Source of the DNA: Sulfitobacter sp. JL08
GTDB taxonomy: Bacteria; Pseudomonadota; Alphaproteobacteria; Rhodobacterales; Rhodobacteraceae
Assembly: GCF_003352045.1 (NCBI RefSeq)
Contig: NZ_CP025815.1
Location: forward strand, 3,906,001-3,970,000
Direction: 5' to 3'
Length of the DNA: 64,000 bases
Both the position numbers and the translations under genes were made by a program. Shown here piece by piece: positions 49,274 through 56,762 of the stretch (position 1 is its first letter; the number at the start of each line of letters is the position of its first letter). The notes beneath the pieces are model-generated. The model saw nothing but the letters and a program-made list of their open reading frames with translations. It searched no databases and was not told the origin of the DNA.

Positions 49274-49927
49274 CTACTTGCTGCGCCAGCTGTCAAACCA
49301 GCGCCGGATACGCCCGCGCCGTTCGTCCACCGCATCGCCGGCGGCCTCCCAACTGTCTGAAATTTCTTCCAGCGTCGGATCGATCCGGCGTTGGCGGAAC
49401 CGCCGCCAGCGTACCCAGATACCATAGACCAGTGCGGCCAGCAGCGTCAGGATAATGATATTCAGCCAAGGCAGGCCCAGTTGGTGATCCGGGCCCGTGG
49501 CCGGTTTGACACCCAGCGCATTGGGATAGATCGACAGGAATTCGTTGCGCCAGCCGTAATGCCGGATCACAGCCCATTGCGCGCCACCGGCCGTTGTCTT
49601 GGATTCCAGATCGGATGCTTCGGCCTGCAGGTTCGAGGTGTCGAATTTGAAGAACGGCGGCCAGCCCCAACCGGTATCTTCGTTGCGGTAGATGATCGGC
49701 TTGCCGTTGTCCTTGAACGCCTGAATGAAGAAAACATCGCGGTTCGTGAGGTTCGGGTTGTCGCCGGTTTGCGCATGCGACCAGAAGATCGAATTCTCGC
49801 CGAAATCGATGCGTTCCAGATAGGTATCTGTAATCCGCACCACGTCGCGTTGCGGCAGCGTATAATGCAGGAAACTGCCGATGAAGACCCAGACAGCAAT
49901 GATCAAAGCCCACTTGATGTATTTCAT
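49274..49927 (-). CDS. DUF1523 family membrane protein
   Basis: A 217-residue protein with an N-terminal membrane segment (about 5-22, KWALIIAVWVFIGSFL) and a second one near 150-170 (WLNIIILTLLAALVYGIWV). A periplasmic domain of about 125 residues lies between them (LPQRDVVRITDTYLERID, NRDVFFIQAFKDNGKP). The C-terminal 45 residues are basic and cytoplasmic. This is the DUF1523 family; no function is known. Last gene of a seven-gene operon. Confidence 0.87.
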   Translation of the reverse strand: MKYIKWALIIAVWVFIGSFLHYTLPQRDVVRITDTYLERIDFGENSIFWSHAQTGDNPNLTNRDVFFIQAFKDNGKPIIYRNEDTGWGWPPFFKFDTSNLQAEASDLESKTTAGGAQWAVIRHYGWRNEFLSIYPNALGVKPATGPDHQLGLPWLNIIILTLLAALVYGIWVRWRRFRQRRIDPTLEEISDSWEAAGDAVDERRGRIRRWFDSWRSK

Positions 49928-49939
49928 TTCGCCCGTCCC

Positions 49940-50206
49940 CTAGTGGAAATTGGTCAGATAGATGATGATCGACACCACGACAACCGGCACAACGTAAACC
50001 CCCAGGATTAGTTTGCGCCGCAGCGATCCGTCATAGTCTTCCAGTCCCTGTTGCACCCATGCGTCCTTGTCGCCTTCCATGCCTTCTTCGTCCCATTCGC
50101 GCTGCAGCTTTCCCTTGCGCACCGCGCGCGAATAAAACGACAGGGCAACGTAGATGATGGTCAGAACCACAAATCCGATGACAAGCAAACGACCCAGTGC
50201 AAACAT
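49940..50206 (-). CDS. Small two-TM membrane protein of unknown function
   Basis: An 88-residue protein with two hydrophobic segments (about 3-24 and 67-86) joined by a charged cytoplasmic stretch (KGKLQREWDEEGMEGDKDAW). No family is recognised. Gaps to its neighbours are 2 bases upstream (DUF6638 stop at 50209) and 12 bases downstream. It is probably a membrane partner of the operon products. Confidence 0.8.
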   Translation of the reverse strand: MFALGRLLVIGFVVLTIIYVALSFYSRAVRKGKLQREWDEEGMEGDKDAWVQQGLEDYDGSLRRKLILGVYVVPVVVVSIIIYLTNFH

Positions 50207-50208
50207 GG

Positions 50209-51555
50209 CTACCCCTTCCTGACCGCGCCCCAGGGTCCGACACGATCAATCAGATCGCGGGGATCGGGGGCTGCAGGTTCTTCCATCGGCGCATCATGCC
50301 CGAACAACGCGCGGCGCGCACCTGCCTTGTCTACCTGATATTCCCGGTCCAGAAAATCAACCACATAGGATTTCTTGGCCTCGCTCCAGCCCTGATAACG
50401 CTGATAGAACGCATCCTTGTGGCAGATGAACAACTGGCGGATATCCTTTGGGGTCAGTTCGGCAAGCAGCATGTTCACCAGATCACGGTCGGGTGTATCG
50501 GCAGCGCGCAGCGTATAGAAATAGGCCGGGTGGTCAGACGCGATCCGCGGCCATGGACCGCCATCTTCGGCCCAGCGCAGCAGCGCGGACAGGGCGTGGA
50601 ATTCGGGCGGCAGACCGGCGGCGTTTTCGCGCGCCAGCCGCCTGATATCACGCCGCGTCGCCCCCTTCAGATCAATGCCGCTTTGGGTTGCGGCATCCAC
50701 CACGATGAAATCAATCTTTTGCCGCAGGATAGCGGCGGCATCGATGCCACGCGCCTTGACGATGGGTTCGACCAGCCCGTTGAATTCGAAAAACCGCGCG
50801 ATCCTGTTGGGTTCGGAAAAATCCAGCACATACTGGATCGGCAATTCGCCCAGCGGCGCCTTGGGCCCAACCGATATCAGCGCCGGATGTTCGACCCCGC
50901 GAAACAGGTAGAGCCCGCCGAAATGTGCGGTCCAGAAATTATCCTGTTCGAATTTCATGTGTCTGAGCTTGACCGGATTGCGCGTCACATCGCCGGTGCG
51001 TTTGGCCAATGTGATCATGTCCGCGATCAGCACATCATCAAACCAGCCGTCCTCGGCGGTTTTGAACCGGTCCACCATATCGCCAAGCGCCTTGGCATCG
51101 CGCACCGTGCCGGTTGTGGTATCGGCCTCGACGGTGACGCTGCGGATATCGAACAGACGTTTGGGCGAAGACACATCATAGACCGAATTCACCAGCTCCC
51201 CCGCCACGGCATCCCGGGCCGTCAGTGCAAATAACTGCGCCTCGTTTTCAGTGATGAACTGGCGCAATATCCCGCGCGAGGTTGAAAATTTCGTATTCAG
51301 CAGCGGCGCGCGTTTCTGATCGGTCGTCAGCAGAATGAACTGCCGGTTCACCCCGGCATGGTTCAGATACAGATGGTCGTTCAGCTCGTCCCCGATCTCG
51401 GGCGAATAGCCGGAAATGTCGATGTGGAAATCGGACAGCTGCGTAGTCTTGCCTGTCAGATGCTTGAGCGCACGGTTATACCGGTCCACCAGCGCGGGCG
51501 AGGCAACCTCGATCAGGTTACCGAACATCAGGCCACGTTGGATAAGCCGTTTCAT
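50209..51555 (-). CDS. DUF6638 family protein
   Basis: A 448-residue soluble protein with no signal peptide or membrane segment. It opens MKRLIQRGLMFGNLIEVAS. FIVVDAATQSGIDLKGATRRDIRRLAREN is part of the central region, and VVDFLDREYQVDKAGARR lies near the end. It belongs to the family I recall as DUF6638, with no known reaction. Its start overlaps the stop of the HEPN-motif gene by four bases (ATGA), so that gene is coupled to it. It lies in the AAA ATPase operon. Confidence 0.8.
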   Translation of the reverse strand: MKRLIQRGLMFGNLIEVASPALVDRYNRALKHLTGKTTQLSDFHIDISGYSPEIGDELNDHLYLNHAGVNRQFILLTTDQKRAPLLNTKFSTSRGILRQFITENEAQLFALTARDAVAGELVNSVYDVSSPKRLFDIRSVTVEADTTTGTVRDAKALGDMVDRFKTAEDGWFDDVLIADMITLAKRTGDVTRNPVKLRHMKFEQDNFWTAHFGGLYLFRGVEHPALISVGPKAPLGELPIQYVLDFSEPNRIARFFEFNGLVEPIVKARGIDAAAILRQKIDFIVVDAATQSGIDLKGATRRDIRRLARENAAGLPPEFHALSALLRWAEDGGPWPRIASDHPAYFYTLRAADTPDRDLVNMLLAELTPKDIRQLFICHKDAFYQRYQGWSEAKKSYVVDFLDREYQVDKAGARRALFGHDAPMEEPAAPDPRDLIDRVGPWGAVRKG

Positions 51556-52574
51556 AGGGATGAACCCCTCTTCTCTTCAAACCGAAGGACGAGCATTTTT
51601 ATCCATGACATTGCACCTTCGATTGCCCAAGAAGTTTGAAACACTGTGAGTTGCGGCATCGGTTCGCTTCCGGGGCCGTGACCAAGCTGGTTCCGAACCT
51701 TTGAAAAATAAGCCTTGAGTAACTCCTTTTCCCAAACCTCCAAGAAAACCAGATCTTTCTTTGATAAGTTGTCAATGAAACTGTGAGCTCCATTTTCTTT
51801 CCCATGGGTCGCACATAGCTCGCCTGAAATGATTTTGAGTGTACTTTCGAGCGCTTTGGCCGCAAAAAATGCTGGATCTTTTCCTCCATTGTCCCTCTGA
51901 TCAACCGCTTCTTTCATGTCCAAATCAACATTTTGCCAGATTGGTTCAGAAACTAGACTCCAAAATGGTTGTTCGATTTCGTGTGAGACTAATTGATCAG
52001 CCTCTATTTGAAAAAAGCCGTTGTGATAGTGCAAAGGAAAGTTTGCAGCGCGAAATCTGGAGTTAACTTCGGCGGCAGCGTCTTCATATTTTTGAATTTC
52101 TAGTTGGTAAGCCTTAGAGACCATATCCGCGACTGGGCCGCCTATTTTCACAGTATCACGCATTGCCTCTGCACGCTCATACTTCTGTCGCAAACCGACC
52201 TCGATTAGACCGAGCCTTTCCTTTAGGTATTGATCAATATCAGCATCCAATGCTTTTTGCGCGGAATACCAGTTTCTACAAATTTCTATGTACGGCCTTT
52301 GCCTGCTTTCGGTCCGCCTGTATTCTCCGAGGCCGACGTCGGTCTGATAATAAGCATCGGACAACCAACGAGCACCTAGCTCATTGGCAAGCCTTTTATG
52401 AACTTCCGCCCAAAAACTGGCACTCGATTCTTGTTCTTTACCTACTTCTCCCCAGTAGGGGTGGAAATCTTCAAGTATAGTAAAGCACTGATGTAGCGTT
52501 CTTTTTTCTCGCCGAAGCAAACTCCTAAACAGTGCTGTCTCTTCGTATCTTGTGAAAAACACATCTGTAAGCAT
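51552..52574 (-). CDS. HEPN-motif (Abi-like) protein, low G+C, inside the ATPase operon
   Basis: A 340-residue protein of mainly helical prediction. The C-terminal ~100 residues hold AKALESTLKIISGEL (239-253) and VRNQLGHGPG (293-302), so Arg294-x4-His299, the RNxxxH motif of HEPN ribonucleases. The same two-block pattern occurs in abortive-infection-like proteins of the AbiJ/STM4504/DUF7014 type. The N-terminal 200 residues are not recognised. Base composition is clearly different: bases 51721-51780 contain 21 G/C of 60, while 53521-53580 in the ATPase gene contain 35 of 60. It is therefore probably acquired, yet it fits the operon with a four-base overlap and a six-base gap. Confidence 0.72.
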   Translation of the reverse strand: MLTDVFFTRYEETALFRSLLRREKRTLHQCFTILEDFHPYWGEVGKEQESSASFWAEVHKRLANELGARWLSDAYYQTDVGLGEYRRTESRQRPYIEICRNWYSAQKALDADIDQYLKERLGLIEVGLRQKYERAEAMRDTVKIGGPVADMVSKAYQLEIQKYEDAAAEVNSRFRAANFPLHYHNGFFQIEADQLVSHEIEQPFWSLVSEPIWQNVDLDMKEAVDQRDNGGKDPAFFAAKALESTLKIISGELCATHGKENGAHSFIDNLSKKDLVFLEVWEKELLKAYFSKVRNQLGHGPGSEPMPQLTVFQTSWAIEGAMSWIKMLVLRFEEKRGSSL

Positions 52575-52580
52575 GAAGCT

Positions 52581-54512
52581 CTATTTCCCTTCCAGATACC
52601 GCTTCTTCGCCGCTTCGGTCCGCTCGTATTCGCGCACCATGTTGTCAATCGCCACCTCGTCGGATTTATCCGCATAGCGGAATTCTGAATCCGCGTAGCG
52701 GTTGATTTCCTGTATCACCATCTCAACCGTGATCGGCTGGCGCAGTTCCTTGATCATGTTCATTTTCGTGTCGTAATCCTGAAACAGGAACAGATCGGGG
52801 TTTTCCATCCACTCGTCGGGCAGTTCGAAATCCATTGCCCGCACCTTGACCGCGTCTGTGATGTTCTTGATCGCGCGGCCGGTAAAACGGTCATCCGCCT
52901 CCTGAATGCCTTTCAGATAGGTGCCCAGCTTGGCAATCGTATCCAGCGCGCCGATGTCGCCTCTGACCTGTTCATAGACCCGCAACAACCCGTCCTCGTG
53001 CGGTCGCGCATGCGATGCGAAAGAGGCGGCGACCGCCTTCTTGATCTCTTGCGCGGCATAGGCATCGTGATCGCCCAGCGGAATGTCGTGGTTCTTGCCC
53101 ATCAGCAGATACAGGATGTCGATATAATCCTCGCGCGTGATCGGACCATCAACCAGAAACCGCGCGCCGGCGCGCTGGCGCAGCGCATCATCGACATTTT
53201 CGGGATAGTTCGAAAACATCCCGAACGTACAGTTGCCGCGCACCACCGTATTGGCCCCGGCAAAGCTTTCCATCAGCACGGCCGTAATCTCAAGCTGGCC
53301 GGCGCTGGACTGGCGATCACCGCGTTTGCCTGCAAGCGTGTCGATATCATCGATTGTGCCGAACCCGATTACCGACGGGTCGATGATCGTGTCGATGAAC
53401 GCCTTGGCGTTCTGCCCCGATTTGCCCTGATAGCTGTCGATATTGCCCGTGCTCAGATTCTGGTAGCGGAACGGATAGCCTGCAATCTGGCAATAGTCGT
53501 TGATCATGCCCGCCATCATCTGGATCAGGGTCGTCTTGCCCGTGCCCGGCTTGCCATCCCCCATGAAGGTAAAGATGAACCCGCCCAGTTCGGCAAACGG
53601 GTTCAGGCGCCTGTCAAAATCATAGGCCATCAGCATCTTGGCCAGCTTCATCGCCTGATACTTGGCAATATGGTTGCCCACCACCTCGTTCGGTTTCTTG
53701 AACGTCATCGTCAGGGTGGTCGATTTTGCCTTGGAACTGGGGGAAAATCCGCGGATCGTCAGATCATCCGCCGCCACGTGCCACGCGGCGCCGTTGAACG
53801 GCTCCAGCCGCCCGGCGGTCTGGGCGCGCAACTTAACCTTTTCCATCAGCTGTTCGGCAAAGGCCGCCACCGTCGCCACAAGGCGCGCATCGTCACCGGC
53901 ATGTGCGCCGATGTCCTGATCCAGTTCCCACAGCGCGCCATGCAGCGCCAGTTGCCCGTTGTCAGTCAGTATTTCTTCAACCTCACCGACCTCGACCGTG
54001 ACTTCGGACAGGTGCGGCGACAACAGATAGGCCGTGGCGTTGCCAAACACATAAAGCGTGATCAGTGCCTCGGCCGCCAGCAATTCGGAAAACTCGGTCT
54101 TGCGCGCGGCCGCCAGTGACCCCTGCAAATTCGCCCGTTTCAGATCGCCCAGCCCGGTTTGCGCACCGTACTGATCCGCCACCGCCAGCGCGATCGACAC
54201 CGCGCGCCGCAGCACGTTCATCACCGTCGCCTGCAACGGCGATGTCAGCGCATCCCCGCCATCCGCAGCCTCGATCCGCGCCAGCAGTTGCACCCCTTCG
54301 CTGCGCGCCGTCGACCGCGTGACAAGGCCGGGTGTGGTGGTGCGAAACCGCCGCCGGGATCCGATCCCGCTGGATTTTTCCGGTGTCTCGTCCGAGTCTG
54401 CCACCCCGATCCGGGGCGTGTGGTCAAACCCTTCCAGCATGGCCGTAACAGCAGGGTAATGCCCCACAATATCGTCTTCGCGCAGTTCCATCTGGTCCGA
54501 GGTCAGGCTCAT
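52581..54512 (-). CDS. AAA family ATPase of unknown role
   Basis: A 643-residue protein. ATG 54512 is preferred; the frame is open 12 codons further. Residues 1-290 are a region without known domain. The ATPase core follows: Walker A GDGKPGTGKTT (318-328), Walker B region VIGFGTIDDIDTLAG (381-394), a sensor-1-like CTFGMFSNYPENVDDALRQR (428-447) and the R-x-GAR finger-like stretch (445-451). The C-terminal part (about 460-643) is helical. It resembles AAA proteins of the MoxR/Vps4-like style, but no closer family is recognised. Central gene of the operon. Confidence 0.85.
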   Translation of the reverse strand: MSLTSDQMELREDDIVGHYPAVTAMLEGFDHTPRIGVADSDETPEKSSGIGSRRRFRTTTPGLVTRSTARSEGVQLLARIEAADGGDALTSPLQATVMNVLRRAVSIALAVADQYGAQTGLGDLKRANLQGSLAAARKTEFSELLAAEALITLYVFGNATAYLLSPHLSEVTVEVGEVEEILTDNGQLALHGALWELDQDIGAHAGDDARLVATVAAFAEQLMEKVKLRAQTAGRLEPFNGAAWHVAADDLTIRGFSPSSKAKSTTLTMTFKKPNEVVGNHIAKYQAMKLAKMLMAYDFDRRLNPFAELGGFIFTFMGDGKPGTGKTTLIQMMAGMINDYCQIAGYPFRYQNLSTGNIDSYQGKSGQNAKAFIDTIIDPSVIGFGTIDDIDTLAGKRGDRQSSAGQLEITAVLMESFAGANTVVRGNCTFGMFSNYPENVDDALRQRAGARFLVDGPITREDYIDILYLLMGKNHDIPLGDHDAYAAQEIKKAVAASFASHARPHEDGLLRVYEQVRGDIGALDTIAKLGTYLKGIQEADDRFTGRAIKNITDAVKVRAMDFELPDEWMENPDLFLFQDYDTKMNMIKELRQPITVEMVIQEINRYADSEFRYADKSDEVAIDNMVREYERTEAAKKRYLEGK

Positions 54513-54546
54513 ATCTTCACTTTCCCAAAATACTCCCGCCGGAGGC
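54513..54546. repeat. Dispersed intergenic repeat, copy 3 (inside the operon)
   Basis: Contains TCACTTTCCCAAAATACTCC then CGCCGGAGGC, related to the copies at 30921-30960 and 46293-46328. It fills the 39-base gap between the 377-residue protein gene stop (54552) and the ATPase start (54512). On the minus strand it places GGGAAAGTGAAG just before the ATG, so it may supply the ribosome-binding site. Confidence 0.6.
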
Positions 54547-54551
54547 ATCCG

Positions 54552-55685
54552 TCATCGATAGGACAGAACACGCCCCTGCGGACTCACTACAAATTTCCGC
54601 ACACTGGCAAAGCCGGGCGGGTTCTTTTCTTCCAGAACCTGATAGGGGCGCTGGGGCAGGATGATGCTGCGCTCGGTGCGGGTGGCACCGGTGTCCACAC
54701 CGCGCCCGGCAAACGGATCAAGGGCAAAAACCTGCCGCTCCACCTTTGAAAACCAGCCGGCACGCTCTTCGATCACCCGCTCGCTTTCCAGATCTTCGGT
54801 GGTCCAGACTAGCGCCCAGTCCTGCCCTTCAGGTGATTTTGCCTCGGCCAGAACCTCGCGCAGCGGACCCGATTGTGCGGTATACGCATGCGAATACATC
54901 GGGCCGATATGGAACCGGCGCAGCCGCTTTGGATGCAGATCATCAAAATCTCGGTCAAACCCCTGTGCGATGGTCAACAGTTTCAGCCCGCCCAGGCTTT
55001 GCGCCATCAGATGCGCCTGCGCCTCGGGCCAGCGGTTCTGATCCTTGGGCAAGGCGGTCTTGCCGGTGTCCTCGACCTCCATCAGATAGATTGTCGGCAG
55101 GTTGATCTGGCTGTCATAGACGGCCCAGTGCAGCAGAAACCTGCGCCGCTGTTCCGACAGATTGCCCGTCCACACGGCCTGCGGATCGTTCTGCGCCCAG
55201 AACAGGTGCCCGCGCAGCAATTCTTCGTAGTAGAGCCGTTGGGACAGTGCGAATTGCAGTTTGGTCGGCAATTCCAGATCGCCGATGATCTGCCGCACCA
55301 TCTGGTCTTTCAGCGCCTCTGTGGACGGCATATTGTCCAGATGCCGCGCGGCCTGTTGCGCGTCATTGGCCATAGTCAGCAATTCGGCCGCCACCGGAAA
55401 TCCGCTTTCATGCGCGTCCATCGCCAGACTGCCGAAAAACCGCCCCGTATCCCGCCCCACCAGCAGATATTTCAGGCTAAGCGCGCGAAACGTATAAGAC
55501 AGCGCCGCGCCATAACGCGTCAAAACCTTGACCTCGTCCTTGCTCAGGCTGCCTTCGGCTTCCATCACCCCGGCCACGCGGGTCATGTGGCCGATGATCG
55601 ACTCAAACTTCTTGAAGTACCGTCGCGAGGCAAAAGGATCGGTCAGCCCGACATGGTCGCGATCCGGTGTGACAGGATCTGTCAT
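54552..55685 (-). CDS. Conserved protein of unknown function in the ATPase operon
   Basis: A 377-residue soluble protein. It opens MTDPVTPDRDHVGLTDPFAS, then has a helical N-terminal half (EAEGSLSKDEVKVLTRYGAAL) and a beta-rich C-terminal half. No signal peptide, membrane segment or known motif is visible. No family is recognised. It abuts the coiled-coil gene with no gap (start at 55685, stop of the neighbour at 55686). Confidence 0.75.
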   Translation of the reverse strand: MTDPVTPDRDHVGLTDPFASRRYFKKFESIIGHMTRVAGVMEAEGSLSKDEVKVLTRYGAALSYTFRALSLKYLLVGRDTGRFFGSLAMDAHESGFPVAAELLTMANDAQQAARHLDNMPSTEALKDQMVRQIIGDLELPTKLQFALSQRLYYEELLRGHLFWAQNDPQAVWTGNLSEQRRRFLLHWAVYDSQINLPTIYLMEVEDTGKTALPKDQNRWPEAQAHLMAQSLGGLKLLTIAQGFDRDFDDLHPKRLRRFHIGPMYSHAYTAQSGPLREVLAEAKSPEGQDWALVWTTEDLESERVIEERAGWFSKVERQVFALDPFAGRGVDTGATRTERSIILPQRPYQVLEEKNPPGFASVRKFVVSPQGRVLSYR

Positions 55686-56762
55686 CTATCCGCCGTAAAG
55701 GTTCTTGTCGTGCTTCTCGATGATCTTCCCAAAGCGGCGGGCAAAGCGTTCGTCGGCCTTGGCCTTGGCTTCCAGAACCTCGCGGGCAAACACCATGTGG
55801 TCTTCATGCGCTTCCATCATGTCGGCCATGCGCTTGTTGGTGGCTGTCCCGATCGAGGCCATGGCGGTTTGCGCCTCCTGATCCGTCTGCACGCCAATTT
55901 CGTTGATCCGGTGGGCAACGTCCTGTTGCTGAGCGGTTTTCAACGATTTCGACAGGGCATCATACAGCACCACGCGCTGTTTTGTGTCGGTTTGCAGCTT
56001 GTTGATCAAAACCATTTGCGTTGCCGCCTGGTTTTGCAGCGAATCAATCCAGGTCTTGCCCTTTTCGATATAGCGTTCCAGCGTCTGCGATTTCGCCAGC
56101 TTGACCTGTTCGTCCTGCACCATGGCATTGTATTTCGTGTTCAGCGCGGCCAGTTCGGTTTCCAGTTTGGTGCGCGCGGCGGCATCCTGTTCGACCGCGA
56201 TCTTGTTTTCCAGCGCGATGATCTTGGGGTCCATTGCCAGAATTTCGGCGCGTGTGGCTTCCAGTTCGCCGACCGTCAGTTCGCGTTCATCCAGCGTTTC
56301 GGACAGGTTGCCCTCGACCTTGGTGCGCTGCTCTTCCAGCATCCGCAACTGGCCTTCCAGCAATTGCACGATCACATCGGATTTGCCGATCAGATCCTGC
56401 AATTTGTCGTCAATCGAAGCGGTGCGCATCCGTTCCTGCCGCATGCTGTCGGATTTGCCCTTTGAAAACACGCCGACAAAGCTTTCCCAGCCTGTCTTGT
56501 TGCGCATTTCGTCAAAATCCTTGGAAAAGGCCGCTGTCACATCATCCAGCCCCATGATCAGTTCGGCGATATTGGCGTTCATCACATCCGTATGCGCGTG
56601 CACATCGTCCAGCGTGGCGTTTTCGATGTCGATCATCGCATCATCGCCGGATTTCATCTTGGCCCGCGCAGTTTCGATCCGGCCGGTCAGTTCGGCGATT
56701 TTTGCCTGTGCCTCGGCCACCTGGGCCTGGGATTCTTTCACCTGTGCGTCAAAATTGGCCAT
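55686..56762 (-). CDS. Long coiled-coil protein, possibly TelA-like, first gene of the ATPase operon
   Basis: A 358-residue soluble protein, almost entirely alpha-helical. Heptad-rich stretches run over residues about 1-35 (AQVAEAQAKIAELTGRIETA) and about 150-220 (GELEATRAEILAMDPKIIAL). The central WIDSLQNQAATQMVLINKLQ and the overall layout distantly recall toxic-anion-resistance TelA/KlaA proteins, but this is a weak impression. It could bind membrane or act as scaffold for the ATPase, which is inference. Its promoter region holds an inverted repeat (56801-56833). Confidence 0.75.
   Translation of the reverse strand: MANFDAQVKESQAQVAEAQAKIAELTGRIETARAKMKSGDDAMIDIENATLDDVHAHTDVMNANIAELIMGLDDVTAAFSKDFDEMRNKTGWESFVGVFSKGKSDSMRQERMRTASIDDKLQDLIGKSDVIVQLLEGQLRMLEEQRTKVEGNLSETLDERELTVGELEATRAEILAMDPKIIALENKIAVEQDAAARTKLETELAALNTKYNAMVQDEQVKLAKSQTLERYIEKGKTWIDSLQNQAATQMVLINKLQTDTKQRVVLYDALSKSLKTAQQQDVAHRINEIGVQTDQEAQTAMASIGTATNKRMADMMEAHEDHMVFAREVLEAKAKADERFARRFGKIIEKHDKNLYGG

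Follow-up and report, generated by a model that had tools for sequence, protein, structure and literature searches.

Results

Organization of the locus

The window, i.e. the whole stretch of 64,000 nucleotides that was analysed, contains on its minus strand a core operon in which an AAA-family ATPase and a DUF6638 protein form the two walls of a variable slot. In the present genome the slot holds one gene, coding for P0001. The features are as follows.

55686..56762, minus strand: core operon protein P0005, probably a coiled coil; no family above cut-off
54552..55685, minus strand: core operon protein P0004; Pfam gives no family above cut-off; 3 nt separate it from the start of the ATPase downstream
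52581..54548, minus strand: AAA-family ATPase P0002, upstream wall of the slot; Pfam AAA, 8.5e-12
51556..52580, minus strand: variable slot from the ATPase stop to the DUF6638 start, 1025 nt here and -4 to 1564 nt across relatives
51552..52574, minus strand: cargo gene P0001, 340 aa, assigned as AbiJ_NTD4 with a C-terminal HEPN-type domain by Pfam, NCBIfam and motif alignment
51825..51860, minus strand: AKALESTLKIIS block of P0001, residues 239-250; invariant residues in 8 homologues
51678..51695, minus strand: RNQLGH, residues 294-299 of P0001, candidate HEPN RNase motif (R-x4-H), from homologue conservation
51552..51555, minus strand: ATGA, in which the stop TGA of P0001 is shared with the start ATG of DUF6638 (from the sequence)
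50209..51555, minus strand: DUF6638 protein P0003, downstream wall; PF20343, E 2.7e-248
49940..50206, minus strand: small membrane protein P0006, core operon
49274..49927, minus strand: DUF1523 membrane protein P0007; PF07509, 5e-65

A literature search of openly licensed papers found none that names DUF6638. The ORF of P0001 is intact. A preliminary description of this DNA had portrayed the gene as low in G+C and fitted seamlessly into a conserved operon, and both observations were borne out. The ATG of P0001 (52572-52574) lies 6 nt after the ATPase stop codon (52581-52583), and at the other end the gene shares its last bases with the start of DUF6638. Over the whole gene the G+C is 0.45 and the GC3 0.43, as compared to 0.59 and 0.75 for the ATPase and 0.59 and 0.71 for DUF6638. 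When the 54 non-overlapping ORFs with 150 aa or more in the 64-kb window are compared, P0001 ranks lowest for both values, the next-lowest being 0.51 (G+C) and 0.50 (GC3). From this geometry it is plausible that the operon controls the expression of P0001.

P0001, an AbiJ_NTD4 protein with a probable HEPN domain

Pfam family PF18863 (AbiJ_NTD4) matches residues 5-206 of P0001 with 38.7 bits against a cut-off of 34, and seven of eight aligned homologues also match this model. The NCBIfam model STM4504/CBY_0614 matches residues 159-304 (E 1.2e-6) with 28 bits against a cut-off of 150; P0001 appears to be related to this subfamily but not to be a member of it. Homologues came from plasmids, from IMG/VR contigs and from two genomes that belong to the same class but to other families. 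They align with P0001 over most of its length, the C-terminal halves being well conserved and the N-terminal halves variable. The RNxxxH motif that had been reported at residues 294-299 is present there as RNQLGH. Across 13 homologues N295, H299 and G300 do not vary, and R294 is missing only from one contig-end fragment; another set of 8 homologues agrees. The motif is therefore not a chance match. The Abi-like AKALESTLKIIS block was also confirmed, with A241, L242, E243, S244, K247, I249 and S250 invariant in 8 homologues.

The Abi/HEPN identity that had been proposed for the gene stands as far as the family match and the conserved motif are concerned, but the fold is only suggested by a model. 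The model built from the 13-sequence alignment has a mean pLDDT of 82 (42 for the single-sequence fold). Its C-terminal part is helical (211-228, 234-252, 262-270, 280-293 and 311-339), and the loop carrying the motif is of low confidence. Foldseek lists Csm6 and the HEPN domains 1o3u/3o10 for this model (TM 0.64/0.53, about 130 columns; E about 1.5 for HEPN), and among its matches none is significant, the best E being 0.11. Since no hit is significant by E-value, the HEPN assignment rests mainly on sequence. A sequence search for relatives of solved structure found none, and the PADLOC models gave no match to P0001. A HEPN-MNT toxin-antitoxin pair was considered and rejected, as the neighbours of P0001 are the AAA ATPase and DUF6638, with no adjacent MNT nucleotidyltransferase.

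The ATPase-DUF6638 junction is a one-gene exchange slot

The stretch after the ATPase was read in about 150 genomes of the family and in 28 species of one genus, and the slot statistics refer to the 170 genomes with both walls. It was found that nine of the 170 slots are empty (at most 60 nt) and nine more measure up to 130 nt, so that 18/170 do not exceed 130 nt; the remaining slots are occupied and reach 1564 nt. The gap has a median of 558 nt and is longer than 150 nt in 124/144 genomes. In four relatives the ATPase and DUF6638 meet in a bare 4-nt overlap, a direct ATGA junction, and the P0001 type of gene occupies only 2/170 complete slots (L033 and L034), plus the slot of one MAG (L063). 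The insertion that had been postulated at this site is thus borne out. Beyond a single inserted gene, the junction of ATPase and DUF6638 is a hypervariable slot for the exchange of one gene. Among openly licensed papers, a literature search found no slot as described here. The downstream junctions are rigid: the gap between DUF6638 and P0006 has a median of -1 and a maximum of 30 nt (n=95), that between P0006 and DUF1523 a median of 10 and a maximum of 34 nt (n=94). Upstream, the P0004-ATPase gap has a median of 21 nt and exceeds 150 in 6/51.

A single ORF touching both walls is present in 80 of the 170 genomes, and these ORFs fall into 38 families. At the ATPase end, 54 of the 80 have a start that overlaps the stop of the ATPase by 4 nt; at the other end, 66 terminate within the ATGA of DUF6638, and 42 show both features. 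Because DUF6638 itself begins with ATGA, the overlap at the stop is in part to be expected, and what is informative there is that the frame stays open through the slot. Typically the ATPase gene has a 3' end like CGGTATCTGGAGGGGAAGGGGTGA, with a purine-rich run and, overlapping the stop, a GTG or ATG start. The 44 fitted ORFs of at least 150 aa have a median G+C 13 points under that of their flanks, and 40 of them lie more than 5 points under.

Cargo of the slot

The largest low-G+C cargo group consists of putAbiC-like membrane proteins, with 15 fitted copies, and Pfam putAbiC is above cut-off for three loci (L105, L203, L204). A further family, c6, has 7 fitted slot copies. Besides the AbiJ genes of L033, L034 and the MAG, the recognised cargo includes Mrr-type nucleases (L075, L185, L187, L201, L209), HEPN-like proteins with RNxxxH (L091, L134, L146), a Schlafen/AlbA_2 protein (L184) and a GHKL/DrmA-like protein (L094); several other cargo families are unassigned. 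A recognised defence-like class occurs in 27 of the 64 genomes with large low-G+C cargo, about 60% being without one. The Pfam matches to 85 cargo ORFs included no integrase family. Since PADLOC at E 0.01 hits ordinary genes of the window as well, it was dropped as proof of defence. As most of the large low-G+C cargo is unclassed and PADLOC is non-discriminating, the label of a defence slot is based on the Pfam families and the context.

Two other kinds of slot content were observed. A family of membrane proteins of about 115 aa with host-like G+C is common (e.g. L055, L085, L101, L106, L130, L140, L156), sometimes in two tandem copies (L127, L129, L135, L168); it may be the native or ancestral slot gene. 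Fourteen slots, from different genera and some of them otherwise empty, contain a palindrome-like repeat rich in G+C: L035, L040, L068, L077, L082, L084, L086, L091, L100, L108, L133, L149, L151 and L158 (in L068, for example, GCGGCGAAGCCGCGATGCGCCCG...). The repeat has no copy in the 64-kb window and is perhaps a short mobile or REP-like element.

It could be argued that the slot is a neutral, insertion-tolerant gap which collects any translatable foreign ORF, its defence look reflecting the content of mobile DNA. Many slots do contain uncharacterised small membrane proteins or G+C-rich repeats, and the PADLOC matches of the cargo are not clearly above background. However, a neutral gap agrees poorly with one intact ORF fitted at both ends in nearly half of the slots and with so few empty ones, with two downstream core junctions that tolerate no insertion, and with low-G+C cargo that recurs in a few families, putAbiC-like and c6 as well as Mrr and AbiJ/HEPN. 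We regard this explanation as unlikely.

Homologues of P0001 inside and outside the slot

The copies of L033 and L034 occupy the same junction and are fitted into it in the same way. This could be expected if P0001 were a housekeeping helical protein with an incidental RN-x3-H, native to the operon and lost in most relatives. Against this, the G+C of the two copies is 0.45 and 0.43 where the surrounding DNA has 0.59 and 0.57, and they are 55% identical as compared to 82% for the ATPase and 76% for DUF6638. The family is rare (6/385 genomes of the class), and homologues occur in proviruses and beside CBASS. A native gene lost elsewhere was rejected, as rarity and foreign composition contradict it, and this origin is extremely improbable. 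The third slot homologue, that of the MAG (L063:8001-8908), is 66% identical and ends at the contig edge; a run of FFFFFFF stands there directly in front of NQLGH and is probably due to faulty assembly.

Outside the slot, 11 IMG/VR contigs carry homologues of P0001. On a provirus contig (L223:2977-4050) an AbiJ-like gene with a G+C of 0.47, against 0.65 around it, starts some 5 nt behind a terminase-like gene, so that a different gene junction shows the same tight fit. The homologue of L224 adjoins lysozyme- and holin-like genes; these names were read from ORFs and not obtained by family search. On a Mesorhizobium plasmid the homologue adjoins SAVED, Mov34/MPN, ThiF and nucleotidyltransferase genes, a CBASS-type locus; the homologue of a Methylocella plasmid has HipA and AAA-ATPase genes nearby. 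A Bradyrhizobium plasmid homologue (L221:4753-5497) looks decayed, since its annotation is broken into short separate fragments and its match falls into two parts. Because homologues occur in proviruses and adjoin a CBASS locus, an abortive-infection RNase is the best reading of P0001. The ATPase/DUF6638 operon is absent from the annotated neighbourhoods of the plasmid and viral homologues, which argues that the AbiJ-like gene would be self-sufficient.

These observations bear on the other possibility raised in the preliminary description, an effector guarded by the ATPase. The operon would then be an immune or stress system whose ATPase complex detects an attack and sets free an exchangeable effector encoded in the slot, as CBASS and retrons use diverse effectors. 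Effector-like proteins (nucleases, HEPN and membrane proteins) do occur at one fixed slot position, and the ATPase operon is patchy: of 397 genomes of the family, one per genus, 166 have the ATPase. On the other hand, the core is kept where the slot is empty, 18 operons having at most 130 nt there and four of these a bare junction, and G013, whose own slot is a bare junction, has elsewhere an Mrr gene that shares 66% identity with one from a slot. Genes of the putAbiC-like or c6 type are present in G054, G181 and G002, where the operon is absent; outside the slot, c6-type genes were found in G181 and G038:C11 and putAbiC-like genes in G054, G002, G130:C112 and G203:C9. AbiJ homologues, moreover, stand alone in proviruses and on plasmids. 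Since the core survives without cargo and the cargo families occur outside the slot, a guarded effector is disfavoured and seems quite unlikely. It is likewise unlikely that the ATPase/DUF6638 operon serves Rhodobacteraceae-type bacteria as a so far unrecognised modular immune platform, in which the ATPase complex would sense stress or phage and leave the response to one interchangeable effector translationally coupled in the slot, be it a HEPN RNase, an Mrr nuclease, a putAbiC-like protein or a small membrane protein. Co-expression of the cargo with the core is possible.

Turnover of slot contents within one genus

Turnover was tested on the ATPase tree in the genus of G055, with 28 species. 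The 14 slot contents need 17 changes on this tree, against a mean of 17.6 for shuffled labels. The sisters L187 and L188 carry an Mrr gene and a gene for a 112-aa membrane protein, respectively. Their ATPase DNA is 90-92% and their DUF6638 95% identical, and the inserts differ except for an 89-nt tail before DUF6638 that is 97% identical, a possible footprint of replacement. Four different contents were found in L190, L191, L193 and L196, which belong to one starred clade of the ATPase tree. Over the last 80 ATPase codons the third-position identity is 0.68-0.77 versus 0.58-0.68; this rise is suggestive of shared flanks and too weak to claim. The turnover would fit an exchange by recombination in conserved flanks.

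Discussion

Our data indicates that P0001 is probably a horizontally acquired, single-gene abortive-infection module that sits in a fixed exchange slot of an operon. From what is known of the family, the AbiJ-NTD4 N-terminal domain would sense a phage component and keep the protein off, and the C-terminal HEPN domain would then cut RNA, halting the infected cell. A role against phage could be assumed for most of the other cargo as well. The 3' end of the ATPase, with its G-rich, Shine-Dalgarno-like run and in many relatives a GTGA or ATGA end, and the ATGA of DUF6638 would flank the incoming ORF, which is then probably co-transcribed and translationally coupled. Since the flanking core genes are well conserved, different cargo could be swapped by ordinary homologous recombination within them.

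P0001 is an added member of a family that is already known. Anantharaman et al. 2013 (PMC3710099) gave CBY_0614 as an example of AbiJ-NTD4, counted AbiJ among the HEPN families having the conserved motif and proposed that the NTD senses or restrains while the HEPN domain is a suicidal RNase. P0001 shares with this family (PF18863, PMC3710099) an NTD4 match above cut-off and R-x4-H at the C-terminus, and also the predicted alpha+beta head and helical tail. Unlike the prototype CBY_0614 it falls below the NCBIfam cut-off, and it is located in a core operon, neither alone nor in an R-M operon.

In the present case a single foreign gene is accepted, with translation unbroken, at one junction of an operon that is rigid elsewhere, and this happens repeatedly within a genus. 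The slot seems to act like a plug-in socket for one accessory gene. It provides a fixed address at which dozens of single-gene modules can be collected (38 families of fitted cargo), many of them possibly anti-phage, and it makes testable how a cell gains a toxic gene pre-wired to a conserved operon.

As a rule, defence hot spots take the form of islands, prophages or integration sites. The slot is a variant form of such a hot spot, one that holds one gene, lies within an operon and is joined at both reading frames. With the P2/P4 hotspots (PMC9122126) and the defence islands of E. coli (PMC10121019) it shares conserved flanks and variable, often defence-like cargo. It differs from them in lying inside a conserved operon, in usually holding one gene whose frame overlaps those of both neighbours, and in showing no integrase or att site in the slot gap. 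It also resembles the R-M operons with HEPN genes (PMC3710099) in that a HEPN gene is carried within another operon; the host operon here, unlike those, is not an R-M operon and has no known defence role, and its cargo is not HEPN-specific.
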